This document shows positions 14,078 through 60,888 of a DNA stretch of 64,000 bases, piece by piece. The stretch lies in the NCBI GenBank assembly GCA_030674875.1, contig JASXSU010000002.1:615001-679000 (forward strand), in the 5' to 3' direction. This DNA comes from Candidatus Endonucleibacter sp. (ex Gigantidas childressi). Lineage in GTDB: Bacteria > Pseudomonadota > Gammaproteobacteria > Pseudomonadales > Endozoicomonadaceae. Position 1 is the first letter of the stretch, and every line of letters begins with the position of its first letter. Made by a program: the position numbers and the translations under genes. The notes beneath the pieces were generated by a model that searched no databases, was not told the DNA's origin, and saw only the letters and a list, made by a program, of their open reading frames with translations.

Positions 14078-14364
14078 AGAGAAATCCTGCATATCGTTTG
14101 AAATAACCTTTCCCCTGATTTATCCAGCAACCCCTGAGATCATTTTTTATTACACGGATTCAAATTCCAAGTGCATCACAGCTTAAAATGCTAACTCAGC
14201 CCTGTGTTCACCCATTATCAGGGCGGGTGTTTTGAAATTCAAATCTTTTCTTGGCCGAGAATTAAGCCGCATCAATGCTCGCTTCACATCTATATGACCG
14301 ACCTTCTTGAAGTCTGTATTCTTTGGAAAATATTGTCGTAGCAAGCCATTGATGTTCTCATTTA

Positions 14365-14488
14365 TACTCAAAGGATTTCAAGTTGCTACTAGGCGGCAAG
14401 TAAGCGAAGCCCCATGAGCCTACGAGTAGTAGGTGATCGGGGTGAGCGAGCGCAGCCAACAACGTAGCAGATTGAAAGGCGACGGGTA
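14365..14488 (+). mobile_element. Young 124-bp MITE-like repeat
   Basis: Inserted just before the NENINGLLRQ segment of the IS30-A transposase. Flanking TA at 14363-14364 and 14489-14490; the left end is mutated to TACTC. The second IS30-A copy carries the same element at the same site and orientation (45153-45275). Confidence 0.9.
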
Positions 14489-14956
14489 TAACCCTCTCTC
14501 CCAGGAGTTGTAGGGTGCGCAAAGTAAACCTCCGCCGATAATGCTTGGCTGATTCTCTCATGGTACGAAAACTCTTTACCGTTGTCAGCCGTAATTGTGT
14601 GAACAATACCCTTAAATGGGTTGAGCAAGCTGATCGTAGCCTTGGTCACATCTGCTGCGCTTTTGCTGTTCGCCTGGACTGAGACCGTGTACTTCGTGAC
14701 CAGCTCGACGATAGTTACCAAAGCCCCGCTATGCCCTTTGCCAATGACGGTATCAATCTCCCAGTCTCCGATACGCGATTTATCGTCAACGATCTCTGGG
14801 CTATCATCTATGCTGACGCGGTTCTTTATCTGGCCGCGCGTTGACTTGCCGTTTCGCCGCTTGTCATACTTCTTGCCCTGGCGACGAAGATGCATGTAAA
14901 GATCGCCGCCAGCCTGCTTATTCGCCCAAATATGTAGGTAGATACTTTCATAGCTA

Positions 14957-15080
14957 TACCCAAAGCATTTCAAATTGCTACTAGGCAGCAAGTAAGCTAA
15001 GTCCCGTGAGCCTACGAGTAGTAGGTGATCGGGGTGAGCGAACGCAGCCAACAACGTAGCAACTTAAAAGGCGACGGGTA
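14957..15080 (+). mobile_element. Young 124-bp MITE-like repeat
   Basis: A second insertion in the same IS30-A copy, upstream of its SYESIYLHIW segment, with TA at 14955-14956 and 15081-15082. The 45-kb copy has lost this region to a deletion, so sharing cannot be judged. Confidence 0.9.
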
Positions 15081-15609
15081 TAATCAGTCGTTCCTGATCA
15101 TTCAGCAATATTCTCTGGGCTCCACTCTACACACAGCTTTGATTCAATCACCGCGATCATTTTTGGCGTCACTCTACTCGCCCGAGCCGACTCTGTACAC
15201 CGCCTATTTGTTCGGCCTTGTGCTTGCCTATATCTACGTTCGCCTGTATTCCTTGCCAACTCACGACTCACCGTGGACTGGCTGGTGCCAATGATCTCCT
15301 ATCTCCCTTTCGCTGCAACCGCTTTTCTTTAGTGCGGAAATCTAGCATCGTTGTTCGTAAGCCAGTTGTTGGTAAGTTATCGTCATCACTTCATCTCTTG
15401 CCGGAGAAAAGGGTAGGAGCTTACCTTCAGCTGGCCCTTTCTTCTACCTAGTCAAGTGATGCACTTCAGATTTGAATCCGCCTTACATTCCAAATTAAAA
15501 TATGCAATGCAATTTTCCAACTTAACGACAGAATCAGACTATAACACGCTCACCGCATCTGAGAATACTGGTGGCGAGGAACTTCCCCACCAGCCACTTA
15601 GCTTTACTT

Positions 15610-44941: not shown

Positions 44942-45692
44942 CCGCGAATTCAAATTCCAAGTGCATCACAGCTTAAGCTGCTAACACAGCCCTGCGTTCA
45001 CCCATTATCAGGGCGGGTGTTTTGAAATTCAAATCTTTTCTTGCCCGAGAATGAAGCCGCATCAATGCTCGCTTCATCTATCTGACCGACCTTCTTGAAG
45101 TCTGTATTCTTTGGAAAATATTGTCATAGAAAGCCATTGGTGTTCTCATTTATACCCAAAGGATTTCAAGTTGCTACTAGACGGCAAGTAAGCGAAGCCC
45201 CATGAGCCTACGAGTAGTAGGTGATCGGGGTGAGCAGCGCAGCCAACAACGTAGCAGATTGAAAGGCGACGGGTATAACCCTAGCTCCCAAGAGCTGTAG
45301 AGGTGCGCAAAGTAAACCTCCGCCGATAATGCTCGGCTGACTTTCTCATGGTACGAAAACTCTGTCCCGTTGTCAGCCGTAATGGTGTTAACAATATCCT
45401 TAAATGGGTTGAACAAGCTGATCGTAGCCTTGGTCACATCTGCTGCGCTTTTGCTGTTCACCTGGGCTGAGACCGTGTACTTCGTGACCAGCTCGACGAT
45501 AGTTACCAAAGCCCCGCTATATCCCTTTGGCTGCAACCGCTTTTCTTTAGTGCGCAAATCTGGCATCGTTGTTCGTAAGCCAGTTGTTGGTAAGTTATCG
45601 TCATCACTTCATCTCTTGCCGGAGAAAAGGGAGGCGCTTACCTTCAGCTGGCCCTCTCTTCTACCTAGTCAAGTGATGCACTTCAGATTTGA
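44942..45692 (-). mobile_element. IS30-family element (type A), second copy, internally deleted
   Basis: Same termini as the copy at 14157. The 3' half (ALVTIVELVTKYTVSAQVNS, TITADNGTEFSYHEK) is fused to the 5' end (CNRFSLVRKSGIVV read antisense) by a deletion near 45520. A MITE at 45153 interrupts it at the same site as the copy at 14365. Confidence 0.85.
45153..45275 (+). mobile_element. Young MITE-like repeat, 123 bp, in IS30-A copy 2
   Basis: TACCCAAAGGATTTCAAG to GACGGGTA with TA at 45151-45152 and 45276-45277. One base is missing in GAGCAGCGCAGCC relative to other copies. Same host-gene site and orientation as 14365-14488. Confidence 0.9.
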
Positions 45693-48454: not shown

Positions 48455-49715
48455 ATGTACGGGACAAAACATTTAGCAGATCTAAAAAAGTGGTTTGATC
48501 ATTTTTCGCACAGCTTTTTTTAAGTACCCGTCTAAACCTATCCAAGCCTAATCGAAACAGACTCTTGGCTAGACGATAATGCTTGTTCAGCGGCAATTGA
48601 TTTGCACTCCCATAACACCAACGCCCTACTAGTAGGTAGTGAGGCACCACACAACAGCAATCGTCAGTAGTCCCATCATCTTCTCCATCCTGTCAAGGTT
48701 CGTCATATGTGTGGACTCCAAATCAAAGCCCATATTTTTTAGATCGCCAAGCATGGTTTTAATACTCCAGCGCTTACTACAGTCATCTATTATGCTGTCT
48801 GGCTTTTTAGTAGCTACGACGATCAACAATCCTTTCAGAGTTCGACGAGCTGCAATATAGAGCGGTACTTCAGATACTTTCTTTTTGCTATGCCACATTA
48901 CTGCTTGATTGATACTAACGCCTCTGCATAGCTTGTCAATAGCAATCTTTTTGCTTCGATGTTCCACCACATTGTTGCTTTTAACCAGAATTCTGCATGA
49001 CAATTTGTTTTGACGTAACCCGTCTAACCATTCGTAGCCTATAAACTCACGATCTGCCAGAAGGTTATCAATTCTCTTTATAGGAATGAGGTTTAGTACA
49101 CGCCCCATTACCGCTATGCGTTCATCGGTATTGGAGCTTCCTCCTTTTCTGTCAAGACACTCCCAAACAATGGGAATTGAGGTTCCTTGCCAAGCAATTG
49201 ATACCACCAGATAGTTGACGTTTCTGGAGCCATGCTTCCAGTTGGTTCTCTCCATGCGCAGGGTAAAGCGATCCATGTCCAGCAGCTCAGAATCAGCTCA
49301 CCTAGATACTCAAAACTGTAGTCATAGTCAGCGAAAAATCGCTTTATACCCATAGCATTTCAAATTGCTACTAGGCAGCAAGTAAACAAAGCCCCGTGAG
49401 CCTACGAGTAGTAGGTGATCTGGGTGAGCGAACGCAGCCAACAACGTAGCAACTTGAAAGGCGACGGGTATATACGGCGATAACTGGACTCGCTGTCTTC
49501 CTTCGCCTGAAACTCTTCGCCTACACGGTACACGTTAGTGGAACGGCTATGCAGTAAGGCCATTACAAACCGTGCAATGAAGGTGATCCTAGCTTGATGC
49601 AGGGGTAGATGAGCCTTAAGCTTCTTAGCCAATGAACTGACGCCTTTCATGTTCAACAACCATAACCTATTCTGGGGTAAAAGACCTTGCAGGTTACCTT
49701 GTCTGAGAATCACGC
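48455..49715 (-). mobile_element. IS4-family element carrying a MITE
   Basis: The terminus TATGTACGGGACAAAACA is at 48455. The reverse transposase reads, in pieces, LLNMKGVSSLAKKLKAHL (49650), then after the MITE RFFADYDYSFEYLGEL, DMDRFTLRMERTNWKHGSRN (first Asp), LLADREFIGYEWLDGLRQNK (second Asp) and RWSIKTMLGDLKNMGFDLES (Glu region, with Glu replaced by Lys). The longest open piece is 48629-49276. Frameshifts plus the MITE inactivate it. Confidence 0.88.
49347..49470 (+). mobile_element. Young 124-bp MITE-like repeat in IS4
   Basis: It lies between GCTT-TA and TA-TACGGCGATAAC. The empty site in the IS4 copy at 26190 (reverse: GCTTTATACGGTGATAAC) shows that TA was duplicated on insertion. 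Confidence 0.93.
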
Positions 49716-49809
49716 TGGATTAATATAATAAGTGCAATTGACTGAAATTTTATAGGTGAGCCAGCTGCCGGTATATTTGTAGCTATCACCCTAAAAATGG
49801 AAGCCAAGA

Positions 49810-50910
49810 ATGAGTACTCAAACTAGGCCATACAAGCAGTTGACTCAAGGGCAACGGTATCAGATTGAGGCTCTTCTTAGAACAGACTACATGCAGAAAG
49901 AAATCGCAGTGTCAGTAGGTATCAGTGAGAGTGCTTTATTACGAGAGTTGAGTCGTAATGCAAATGATGATGGCTACGGTGCTGAAAGCGCCCACGCACT
50001 ACCCAGTCAGCGTAGAGTGACAGCTACAAAGTTTAGCAAAACAGATGAACGACACATGCCCATAATAAAGAAGGGGCTATTGCTTGGTTGGTCTCCTGAA
50101 AATATCAGTTTCCGGATGAAGGTGGAAGTGCCCGACATCGCACTCAGCCACACCACTGTTTATAAACGTGTTGCTACTAACAAAGTGCTAGGAGGCTCTT
50201 TGTATAAGAATCTACCCCGCTTTGGCAAGAGGCGCTGCAAAGGTGATAAGCGTAAGGCTGGGCGTATCACGATCCCAGGCCACGTCGATATTTCCGATCG
50301 GCCCGCAGTTGTTGATCTGCCGTCTCGTCTAGGCGATAGGGAGGGTGATACGATTTATGGACAGGACGCCCATCTGGTCACCCTTGTAGACCGCAAGAGT
50401 CGGTTAACTTTAATAGGAAAAGTTGATACAAAACACGCCGAAGTTGTTGCTGAAAGTATGATCAAGCTTCTGAAGCGGGTGTCATCGGTTTGCACAGTCA
50501 CCCTAGATAATGGTGGTGAGTTTGCAGCCCATGAGAAAGTAGCAAAAGCAATGAATGCAGGTATCTACTTTGCCAAGCCTTATGCTAGTTATCAGCGGGG
50601 AACTAACGAAAATACCAATGGCATCATTCGGAGAACCTGGCCTAAAAAAATGGCGTTGAGTCATCTGACAGAAGATGATGTGAGGACAATGGAAATGTTG
50701 ATCAATACCATGCCTAGGAAGGTTTTATACCCAAAGGATTTCAAGTTGCTACTAGGCGGCAAGTAAGCGAAGCCCCGTGAGCCTACGAGTTGTAGGTGAT
50801 CGGGGTGAGCGAACGCAGCCAACAACGTAGCGGATTGAAAGGCGATGGGTATAGGAGGGTGGACACCACTCGAAGTCTACACAGGACAGCCGATTGCTCT
50901 TATTGCTTGA
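49810..50910 (+). pseudogene. IS30-family (type B) transposase, intact except for one MITE
   Basis: Codons 1-306 (49810-50727) are a clean IS30 transposase: N-terminal HTH (KQLTQGQRYQIEALLRTDY, ISESALLRELSRN), then the DDE domain with Asp in LGDREGDTIYG, Asp in TVTLDNGGEFAAHE and Glu in GTNENTNGIIRRTWPKK. The frame is broken by the MITE at 50728-50851. Removing the MITE and one TA joins PRKVL directly to GGWTPLEVYTGQPIALIA and a TGA at 50908-50910, giving 324 residues. The insertion is therefore recent and the only lesion. Confidence 0.95.
50728..50851 (+). mobile_element. Young 124-bp MITE-like repeat in IS30-B
   Basis: TA at 50726-50727 and 50852-50853 is the duplicated target. Exact removal restores codons AAG GTT TTA GGA GGG. 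In this orientation and frame it adds KDFKLLLGGK and a stop. Confidence 0.96.
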
Positions 50911-51116
50911 ATCCAGCGTTGTGCTTCTATATAGTATTTTAAATAATATATAGTAGACTAATTAAGTAAAAATACCGATTTATTGTATTCATCTAAGACT
51001 AATGTCTAAGTTATAATTTTTACTATAAATGAGAAGTATTAATTTAGAATGAATTAACAACAATAACCATAACATTAGTTTTTTATTTGAATATACTACT
51101 TTATGCTAATACTGGA
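50911..51116. other. AT-rich spacer after IS30-B
   Basis: Very AT-rich, with no gene or repeat seen. The outer boundary of the IS30-B element could not be fixed. Confidence 0.4.
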
Positions 51117-57580: not shown

Positions 57581-58610
57581 GGGACCTCAGCATAACTCAA
57601 CAAAGACGATTATATTCTGGTAAAATATCGGCATGCAACAATCCTTCACAACACAGCCCAAACTCTTAGTTTCAGCCAGCGACCTAAATCATCCAAGTCT
57701 TCGTAGTCTGGATGATACAAAGGCGCTGCTGAAATGGTCAGAGATTGAGAAGTTATTATCCTCAATCTACGCCTCTAACACCGGTCGCCCCAGATATCCT
57801 CTGCTGACCTTGTTTCGAGCCTTATTGCTTGGAACATGGTATGGCTGATCCGATGTGCAGTTGGCTCAGTGCTTGTATATACCCGTCGCCTTTCAAGTTG
57901 CTACGTTGTTGGCTGCGTTCGCTCACCCCGATCACCTACTACTCGTAGGCTCACTGGGCTTCGCTTACTTGCTGCCTAGTAGCAATTTGAAATGCTTTGG
58001 GTATAGAGATCTTCTGTTTAGCAAGTTTTGTCACCTTGAACTTGGTAGAGCAGTTCCCGAGGCCTCCTCTTGGGACGCTTTCGAACACGACTTGTCGAAC
58101 ATCGTCTGTGTGATCAATTATTGGCAGAGATTAATCATCAGCTTGAAGCCAAAAACATCATCATGAGCTAAGGTCGCATTAATATCATTGATGCTACACC
58201 GATAGAGGCCGCGCGATCAGGTTCGGGCCACGCCAAAAGCGGAAAACCGACAAAAGATCCTGAAGCGGGCTGGCACGTTAAGAATTACAGTCGTGGTAAC
58301 AAAAAAAGCACCTATGGTTTTTCCGTTCATACCGGTGTCGATGAAGATGGCTTTATTCATAGGCAAAGCGTAACGCCTGGCAATGTTCATGATTCTCAGG
58401 AACGTGATACCCTGCTGGGGATGAAACGGCACTGTATGCGAATTCCGCTTACAGCTCTGAGCAGACCCGAGATAAATTAGCGCAGCTAGGTATTAAAGAT
58501 CAAGTCCAACGTAAGGGCTACAGAGGGAAGCCTCTATCGAAAGAAGATAGAACTCGTAACAAAGAAAGTTCAATTACCGTGACAAAAGTCGTTGGTTATA
58601 CTAAGGTCTC
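57581..58610 (+). mobile_element. IS5-family element, copy 4, with in-frame MITE
   Basis: Starts GGGACCTCAGCATAAC and ends TATACTAAGGTCTC. The transposase frame runs MQQSFTTQPKLLVSASDLN to ALLLGTWYG; a second open stretch (57855-58166) reads MQLAQCLY, the MITE-encoded 42 residues, then RDLLFSKFCHLELGRAVPEA without a stop. Later parts (DATPIEAARSGSGHAKSGKP, STYGFSVHTGVDEDGFIHR) follow in other frames, with a 3' deletion that joins NKES to the terminal SSITVTK segment. Confidence 0.88.
57880..58003 (-). mobile_element. Young 124-bp MITE-like repeat, read through in frame
   Basis: TA at 57878-57879 and 58004-58005. In this orientation the element plus TA encodes 42 residues (IPVAFQVATLLAAFAHPDHL to SNLKCFGY) with no stop, and the transposase frame resumes correctly. 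Same site as in copies 1 and 3. Confidence 0.92.
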
Positions 58611-60764: not shown

Positions 60765-60888
60765 TACCCAAAGCATTTCAAATTGCTACTAGGCAGCAAG
60801 TAAGCGAAGTCCAGTGAGCCTACGAGTAGTAGGTGATCGGGGTGAGCGAACGCAGCCAACAACGTAGAAACTTGAAAGGCGACGGGTA
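60765..60888 (+). mobile_element. Young 124-bp MITE-like repeat at an IS4 break
   Basis: Left flank GCTT-TA identical to the 49347 insertion. The right flank is unrelated (TAAAAACACATGATTG) instead of IS4 sequence, so one side has been exchanged or deleted. Confidence 0.92.

Follow-up and report, generated by a model that had tools for sequence, protein, structure and literature searches.

ERIC, a small mobile repeat of gut bacteria, was first described in 1990–91. Its TA termini and TA target duplication have already been published (PMC2229807, Table 1; PMC2759123), and in the part of a 2007 review that deals with such elements, transposase-driven movement stands without experimental support (PMC2229807). 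A report of 2018 on Photorhabdus, which gives MITEEc1 as the ISfinder name of ERIC, described a likeness between the ends of IS630 elements and an ERIC-related MITE (PMC6267812); therefore, the idea of an IS630 mover is not new. The range of ERIC stated in a 2024 review is Enterobacteriaceae and Vibrionaceae (PMC10969869). Intragenic ERICs are known (PMC2759123, PMC10969869), and 'intergenic' in the name therefore does not decide membership. What is new here is the setting: we extend ERIC to Endozoicomonadaceae, a family associated with marine animals, and describe a single genome in which filled and empty sites are numerous, ERIC probably rides on insertion sequences, and deletions are attributed to pairs of ERICs.

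An ERIC inside an IS30-family transposase gene

The window (the whole 64-kb stretch of DNA that was analysed) was taken from an assembly of 3.68 Mb in 12 contigs. Its host is a member of Endozoicomonadaceae, the family in which NCBI places E. arenosclerae. A relative assigned to the host's family, G007, proved to be the E. arenosclerae genome, since a stretch of it and one of the genome recorded for that species (G057) agree at every position over 3465 bp. The features around the interrupted gene are as follows.

49347–49470, plus strand: second ERIC, upstream of IS30-B, adjoining an IS4-type transposase remnant
49714–50917, plus strand: IS30-B insertion sequence with ERIC, its extent being that common to copies at other places
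49810–50766, plus strand: open reading frame of the IS30-family transposase, 306 IS30 codons and 12 codons from ERIC
50726–50727, no strand: left TA of the target duplication, a single TA in empty paralogues
50728–50851, plus strand: ERIC of 124 bp, TACCC...GGGTA, of subtype A, which in our sample was seen only inside IS30-B
50852–50853, no strand: right TA of the target duplication, a single TA in empty paralogues

The transposase frame is open for 306 codons up to the junction and reaches a stop after 12 further codons inside ERIC. The original prediction had placed a 124-bp element bounded by TACCC...GGGTA, with TA on both sides, at exactly these positions, and its claim that an otherwise open IS30 gene is interrupted after codon 306 was confirmed. 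The boundaries and the MITE architecture that it assigned to the element were supported. The transposase matched the NCBIfam IS30 model with an E value of 1.5e-69; Pfam matches to rve and HTH_38 were both under their curated cut-offs. Without the 126-bp gain, IS30-B measures 1078 bp and has the ends GCTGGATT... and ...AATCCAGC. Removal of the element had also been expected to restore a normal IS30 C-terminus. A small correction applies here: in one copy from E. arenosclerae and one from an Oceanospirillaceae MAG, seven residues follow EVYSG/EVYTG before the stop.

The element aligned end to end with ERICs of E. coli (two copies), Vibrio (one), and Serratia (one) and had the same length, core, and ends; its 124 bp are near the 127 bp of ERIC. 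The predicted RNA fold was far stronger than that of shuffled sequences (z −6.0, with 0 of 200 shuffles as good; z −5.1 for the other strand), and the strong, long stem-loop of ERIC was thus found on both strands. A small-region repeat scan found no arms at its settings because the palindrome is imperfect, and no Rfam family scored above its threshold anywhere in the 64-kb window. Among 5426 E. coli genomes, 3162 matched the element, but the match covered 80% or more of the query in only 18. Its core holds what we take, by eye, to be diverged versions of the ERIC-PCR primer sites, the primer sequences being in print. Judged by alignment, the element belongs to ERIC (IRU/RU-1), a named and characterised family.

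The original prediction recognised no named family in the element and had itself offered a match to a characterised repeat family as a ground for abandoning that view. A novel MITE family without kinship to ERIC would fit the host, which is not an enterobacterium, and the modest identity of ~71–79% among the matches listed from plasmids and E. coli; in 2711 E. coli records, shorter segments reach 80–90%. The end-to-end alignment with ERICs from three genera, at the same length and with the same core and ends, refutes this reading, to which we give almost no credence. The unnamed-family and Correia-type readings were both dropped on the same alignment. The analogy with Correia-type elements was fair as to TA (PMC2229807, Table 1), but the element is closer to ERIC proper and to those IS630 elements whose ends resemble ERIC. 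The copy in question sits in a gene rather than between genes, and its host lies outside the Enterobacteriaceae and Vibrionaceae, a range that is as reported and describes no structural property.

Two further loci in the window were recorded. The ERICs at 49347–49470 and 60765–60888 both lie by IS4-type remnants and have the left flank GCGAAAAATCGCTTTA in common, while their right flanks differ. At 57849–58163, an open frame of 105 codons encloses a whole ERIC; at E 0.001, it matched nothing in NCBIfam or Pfam.

Copy number and distribution

The element does not recur by chance. Searched with a pattern for 27 bases of the left arm, three mismatches being allowed, the genome was found to carry at least 205 ERIC left arms, and the reversed control gave 0 matches. 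At least 47 matches to the element were listed genome-wide (40 of 413 candidates scored), and the window alone contains 10 near-full copies and 2 diverged ones. For the comparisons below, we assembled a sample of 115 distinct full ERIC copies from the fetched loci and the window; copies with the same element and the same 25-bp flanks were merged, and partial matches were excluded. The insertion-sequence load of this genome is heavy, with 169 matches to the IS30-B type and its kin and 74 to the IS630 model, and many of these copies are broken.

Among 57 genomes searched, including the window's own, 13 had ERIC matches, all of them Endozoicomonadaceae. No ERIC match was found in two genomes of the same genus (G001 and G002), while other genera of the family did match, so that the distribution within the family is patchy. 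Among the papers listed on ERIC or MITEs with Endozoicomonas and on the range of ERIC, we found no report of ERIC in Endozoicomonas; an 'ERIC' match in one Endozoicomonas review was an author's name. The presence of ERIC in Endozoicomonadaceae widens the host range as given in the review (PMC10969869).

Filled and empty sites

IS30-B 3′ ends were located by a genome pattern search, which gave 60 places, all of which were read. Forty-one of them are empty and have one TA (GGTTTTA–GGAGGG or near), 17 carry the element at that TA, and 2 are otherwise broken. An IS30 copy from E. arenosclerae and another from an Oceanospirillaceae MAG are also empty. Site s1 of a second element, IS30-C, had 29 empty matches and was filled in 13 of the 115 distinct copies. 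A site in an IS4-type gene had 46 empty matches and was filled in 4 of the 115; this gene matched the IS4 model with an E value of 9e-38, but its 130 bits are below the cut-off of 152. At the IS630 site, 13 loci of the window's genome were examined. ERIC follows PPY of the PPYSPNLNPIE motif in seven of them, and one is a matching empty site; of the others, three lack ERIC and differ in sequence there, and two were unreadable.

TA was present on both sides of ERIC in 110 of the 115 distinct copies, and 81 of them were 124 bp long, which with one TA makes the 126 bp gained. One filled and one empty site alone would prove only the gain of 126 bp; the division into TA and 124 bp is preferred because of the TA on both sides in those 110 copies. 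With empty sites at four places, each with one TA, it is firmly shown that ERIC duplicates TA on insertion. Thus, the TA duplication put forward in the original prediction stood when the flanks of paralogues were aligned. Because filled and empty versions of several sites occur together, a single genome fixes the boundaries and the TA duplication without strain comparison.

The same prediction had taken the insertion to be recent, and a recent private insertion was dropped on the census of the 60 IS30-B copies. Since the same TA is filled in the same orientation in 17 of the 60 copies, by two ERIC subtypes and in some well-diverged bodies, the ERIC of the window was probably inherited with IS30 or acquired by conversion rather than inserted there.

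Two sets of IS30-B copies were observed besides. L125, L128, and L129 have the same outer flanks (taagtaag / agtcacac), so that a single duplicated place occurs naturally in both states: L129 is filled by an ERIC shortened to 78 bp, and L125 and L128 are empty. A second insertion site for ERIC in IS30-B (CACTGTTTA–TAAACG) was found in two copies, L109 and L132.

Probable spread of ERIC with its carriers

The 17 IS30-B inserts were divided by eye, from their listing, into subtype A (9, including that of the window; four are identical) and subtype B (8). Of the 14 distinct copies flanked on both sides by IS30-B, 7 had a two-marker signature of subtype A, which was absent from all 101 others (Fisher 8e-8); one marker alone was found in 1 of the 101 copies outside IS30-B. 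A loose left-flank test gave 18 IS30-B copies, four of which came from another context and were excluded in the strict both-flank test. Both IS ends are present in 14 of the 17 filled copies, mostly at places with different flanks. Over the whole sample, 16 repeated contexts account for 77 of the 115 copies; some of these contexts are neighbouring ERICs. ERIC has probably multiplied by being carried along in IS30, IS630, and IS4-type elements, and gene conversion will have contributed.

The phylogeny of IS30 (29 of 58 copies used) places filled and empty IS30-B copies among each other. The filled L129 has outer flanks in common with the empty L125 and L128, and the nearest copy to the filled L081 is the empty L100 (0.56%). 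Therefore, conversion, repeated insertion, or loss must also have occurred. If the TA of IS30 were a hot spot that took up ERIC many times independently, riding would be unneeded, and the two subtypes at one TA, the mixing of filled and empty copies on the tree, and the filled L129 beside the empty L125 and L128 would all follow. Such a hot spot does not account for the orientation, which was reversed in 0 of the 115 copies at the IS30-B site or at IS30-C site s1, and it would need an unseen source for subtype A, whose signature occurred in none of the 101 copies elsewhere. We consider it unlikely.

Gene conversion among IS30-B copies has a stronger claim. It could have spread ERIC after one insertion, with little transposition of ERIC-bearing IS30, and the variants around the site are mosaic. 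L096 holds an unmutated subtype-A ERIC in a body that is ~5% diverged. The divergence of subtype-A pairs relative to that of empty pairs was 0.42–0.53 in the four bins nearest ERIC and 0.47–0.94 in the four farther ones, so that these pairs are relatively more alike near ERIC, but the ranges overlap, one far bin being at 0.47; this mixed result leans towards some conversion. Against conversion as the main route, the filled L081, L104, and L107 lie between outer flanks that differ from copy to copy and diverge by 0.8–2.0% along their full length, which fits the copying of whole units. Conversion in this leading role is a possibility that we rate somewhat short of even. Passage of ERIC along with transposing carriers, with conversion as a helper, remains our preferred reading.

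Among IS30-B copies with all 306 codons open, four of six carry ERIC, compared with 13 of the 52 others (Fisher p 0.055). The dN/dS values among these six were 0.21–0.75 in 14 of 15 pairs, and the pair L138/L139 gave 1.9; in view of these values, a working ERIC-shortened transposase is not claimed.

Candidate IS630 mover

In a relative, G028, an IS630 element of ~1105 bp was found at four loci that are ~99% identical, three of them with an open frame of 346 codons. Its ends are TATACCCAAGTGAATTCAAGATGC and TATACCCGTGACCATTGAAGATGC. Beyond TA, these matched the two ERIC ends at 18 and 16 of 22 positions, compared with 13 and 13 when the ends were swapped, and the controls (two other IS630 types and IS30-B) gave 2–7. 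Shared ends with an IS630 element, a feature of MITEs of the IS630 group, were thus found for ERIC in G028. Six named plasmid-borne relatives of the G028 transposase were fetched, one was set aside, and five were examined. The IS630 elements of Vibrio, Fukatsuia, Photobacterium, and Klebsiella had both ends readable, with 14–17 of 22 positions matching ERIC; that of Enterobacter had one readable end. The IS630 L143 of the window's genome gave 15 and 13, and 11 and 17 when swapped, and its polarity was not kept.

Taken on its ends, an ERIC-ended IS630 is likely to be the mover of ERIC. Something else may move ERIC here, the similarity of the ends reflecting old ancestry only. Two results speak for that. 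Among the matches listed, the window's genome has no uninterrupted IS630 copy of the G028 type (44 matches, 37 of 182 candidates scored). The co-occurrence of the two elements is also weak: IS630 pieces at least 60% identical to the G028 transposase occurred in 7 of the 57 genomes and ERIC in 13, with both in 3 (Fisher p 0.33), and two genomes rich in ERIC matches, G035 (2 contigs) and G013, had no match to this transposase. What tells against another mover is that the IS630 elements of G028 and of four named relatives resemble ERIC at each end and in the right polarity, whereas the controls do not, and that the same link of IS630 and MITE appears in the Photorhabdus report (PMC6267812). We regard another mover as rather unlikely, if less so than the hot spot. 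The IS630 of G028, with its open frames and ERIC-like ends, makes the candidate directly testable.

In L143 (L143:1300-2526) and L152, an ERIC interrupts the PPYSPNLNPIE motif of the IS630 transposase without closing its reading frame. ERIC and one TA make 126 bp, or 42 codons, and the consensus has one frame on the minus strand that is free of stops over its full length. L304, L305, and L306 have open frames of equal length on both sides, which suggests that the frame is also open across ERIC there.

Shortened IS30-C elements and ERIC arrays

The window holds the following features of IS30-C.

14155–15480, minus strand: IS30-C element with two same-orientation ERICs, 468 bp apart
14365–14488, plus strand: ERIC at IS30-C site s1 (CTCATTTA–ACCC)
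14957–15080, plus strand: ERIC at IS30-C site s2 (CATAGCTA–ATCAGTCG)
45153–45275, plus strand: ERIC at site s1 of another IS30-C copy

Eleven of the 115 copies join the left flank of s1 to the right flank of s2, as a deletion between the two ERICs would leave. The left IS end was present in 10 of the 11, with differing outer flanks. Both IS ends were found in three (738–755 bp), and the rest are without the right end in the short stretches fetched. The shortened IS30-C thus exists at several places, and recombination between its two ERICs would explain how it was made.

Separately, L261, L262, and L263 (G000 C1:219829-220445; C3:1272321-1272694; C3:1262907-1263154) are head-to-tail ERIC arrays of 5, 3, and 2 units. 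Their joints are mostly GGGTGTATACCC or GGGTATATACCC, a pattern that would result from insertion of an ERIC at the terminal TA of an existing copy or from duplication of a unit.

Discussion

ERIC in this genome is a non-autonomous MITE of ~124 bp with TACCC ends that enters TA and leaves TA on both sides. Its first movement would have been in trans, through the transposase of an IS630-family element with ends like those of ERIC. After landing in other insertion sequences, ERIC would have been copied with them, with some gene conversion, as the markers and copy counts suggest. In one IS30-C, same-orientation ERICs may then have recombined, with loss of the DNA between them, leaving a shorter IS30-C. 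The present spread of ERIC is probably due to riding and recombination rather than to its own transposition, because all copies of the candidate IS630 mover seen in this genome were broken. As a whole, this account, from TA insertion and IS630-driven movement to riding, conversion, and recombination, is the best explanation, and we hold it with high confidence.

A broader proposal, on which we are evenly divided, is that ERIC has lost its mover in this lineage and persists as a parasite of parasites. It would occupy fixed points in IS30, IS630, and IS4-type genes and be copied by their transposition, and recombination among its repeats would yield further shortened IS forms, which spread in turn. 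On this view, ERIC would be a system that crosses orders of the Gammaproteobacteria, and a clade of ERIC-ended IS630 would be the common mover. If riding is true, it shows a small repeat persisting and reshaping other mobile elements after its mover decays.

Several known systems resemble the one described here. By description, Correia/NEMIS of Neisseria is likewise small, has TA ends, and occurs in transposase genes (PMC2229807), but its terminal repeat is 24 bp, compared with 7 bp in ERIC, in the table of that review. RUP of Streptococcus pneumoniae, also likened by description, is 107 bp long, targets TA, has IS630 as its proposed mover, and inserts in transposase genes of several IS families (PMC2229807); its host, however, is Gram-positive. 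MITEPlu5 of Photorhabdus is described as an ERIC-related element of 123 bp with hundreds of copies, which occurs with the similar-ended CCC-type IS630 elements ISPlu3, ISPlu8, and ISPlu19 (PMC6267812). Photorhabdus belongs to a different order, and the IS630 partner here was seen only broken, by ERIC itself at 7 of the 13 loci examined. The element of this study agrees with ERIC/IRU/RU-1 (PMC2229807, Table 1) in length, TA ends, TA duplication, and long imperfect palindrome, and the two can be aligned over their whole length. Unlike known ERIC, it resides in an Endozoicomonadaceae host, two thirds of its sampled copies lie in repeated contexts, several of which are insertion sequences, and one of its subtypes was seen only inside one IS.
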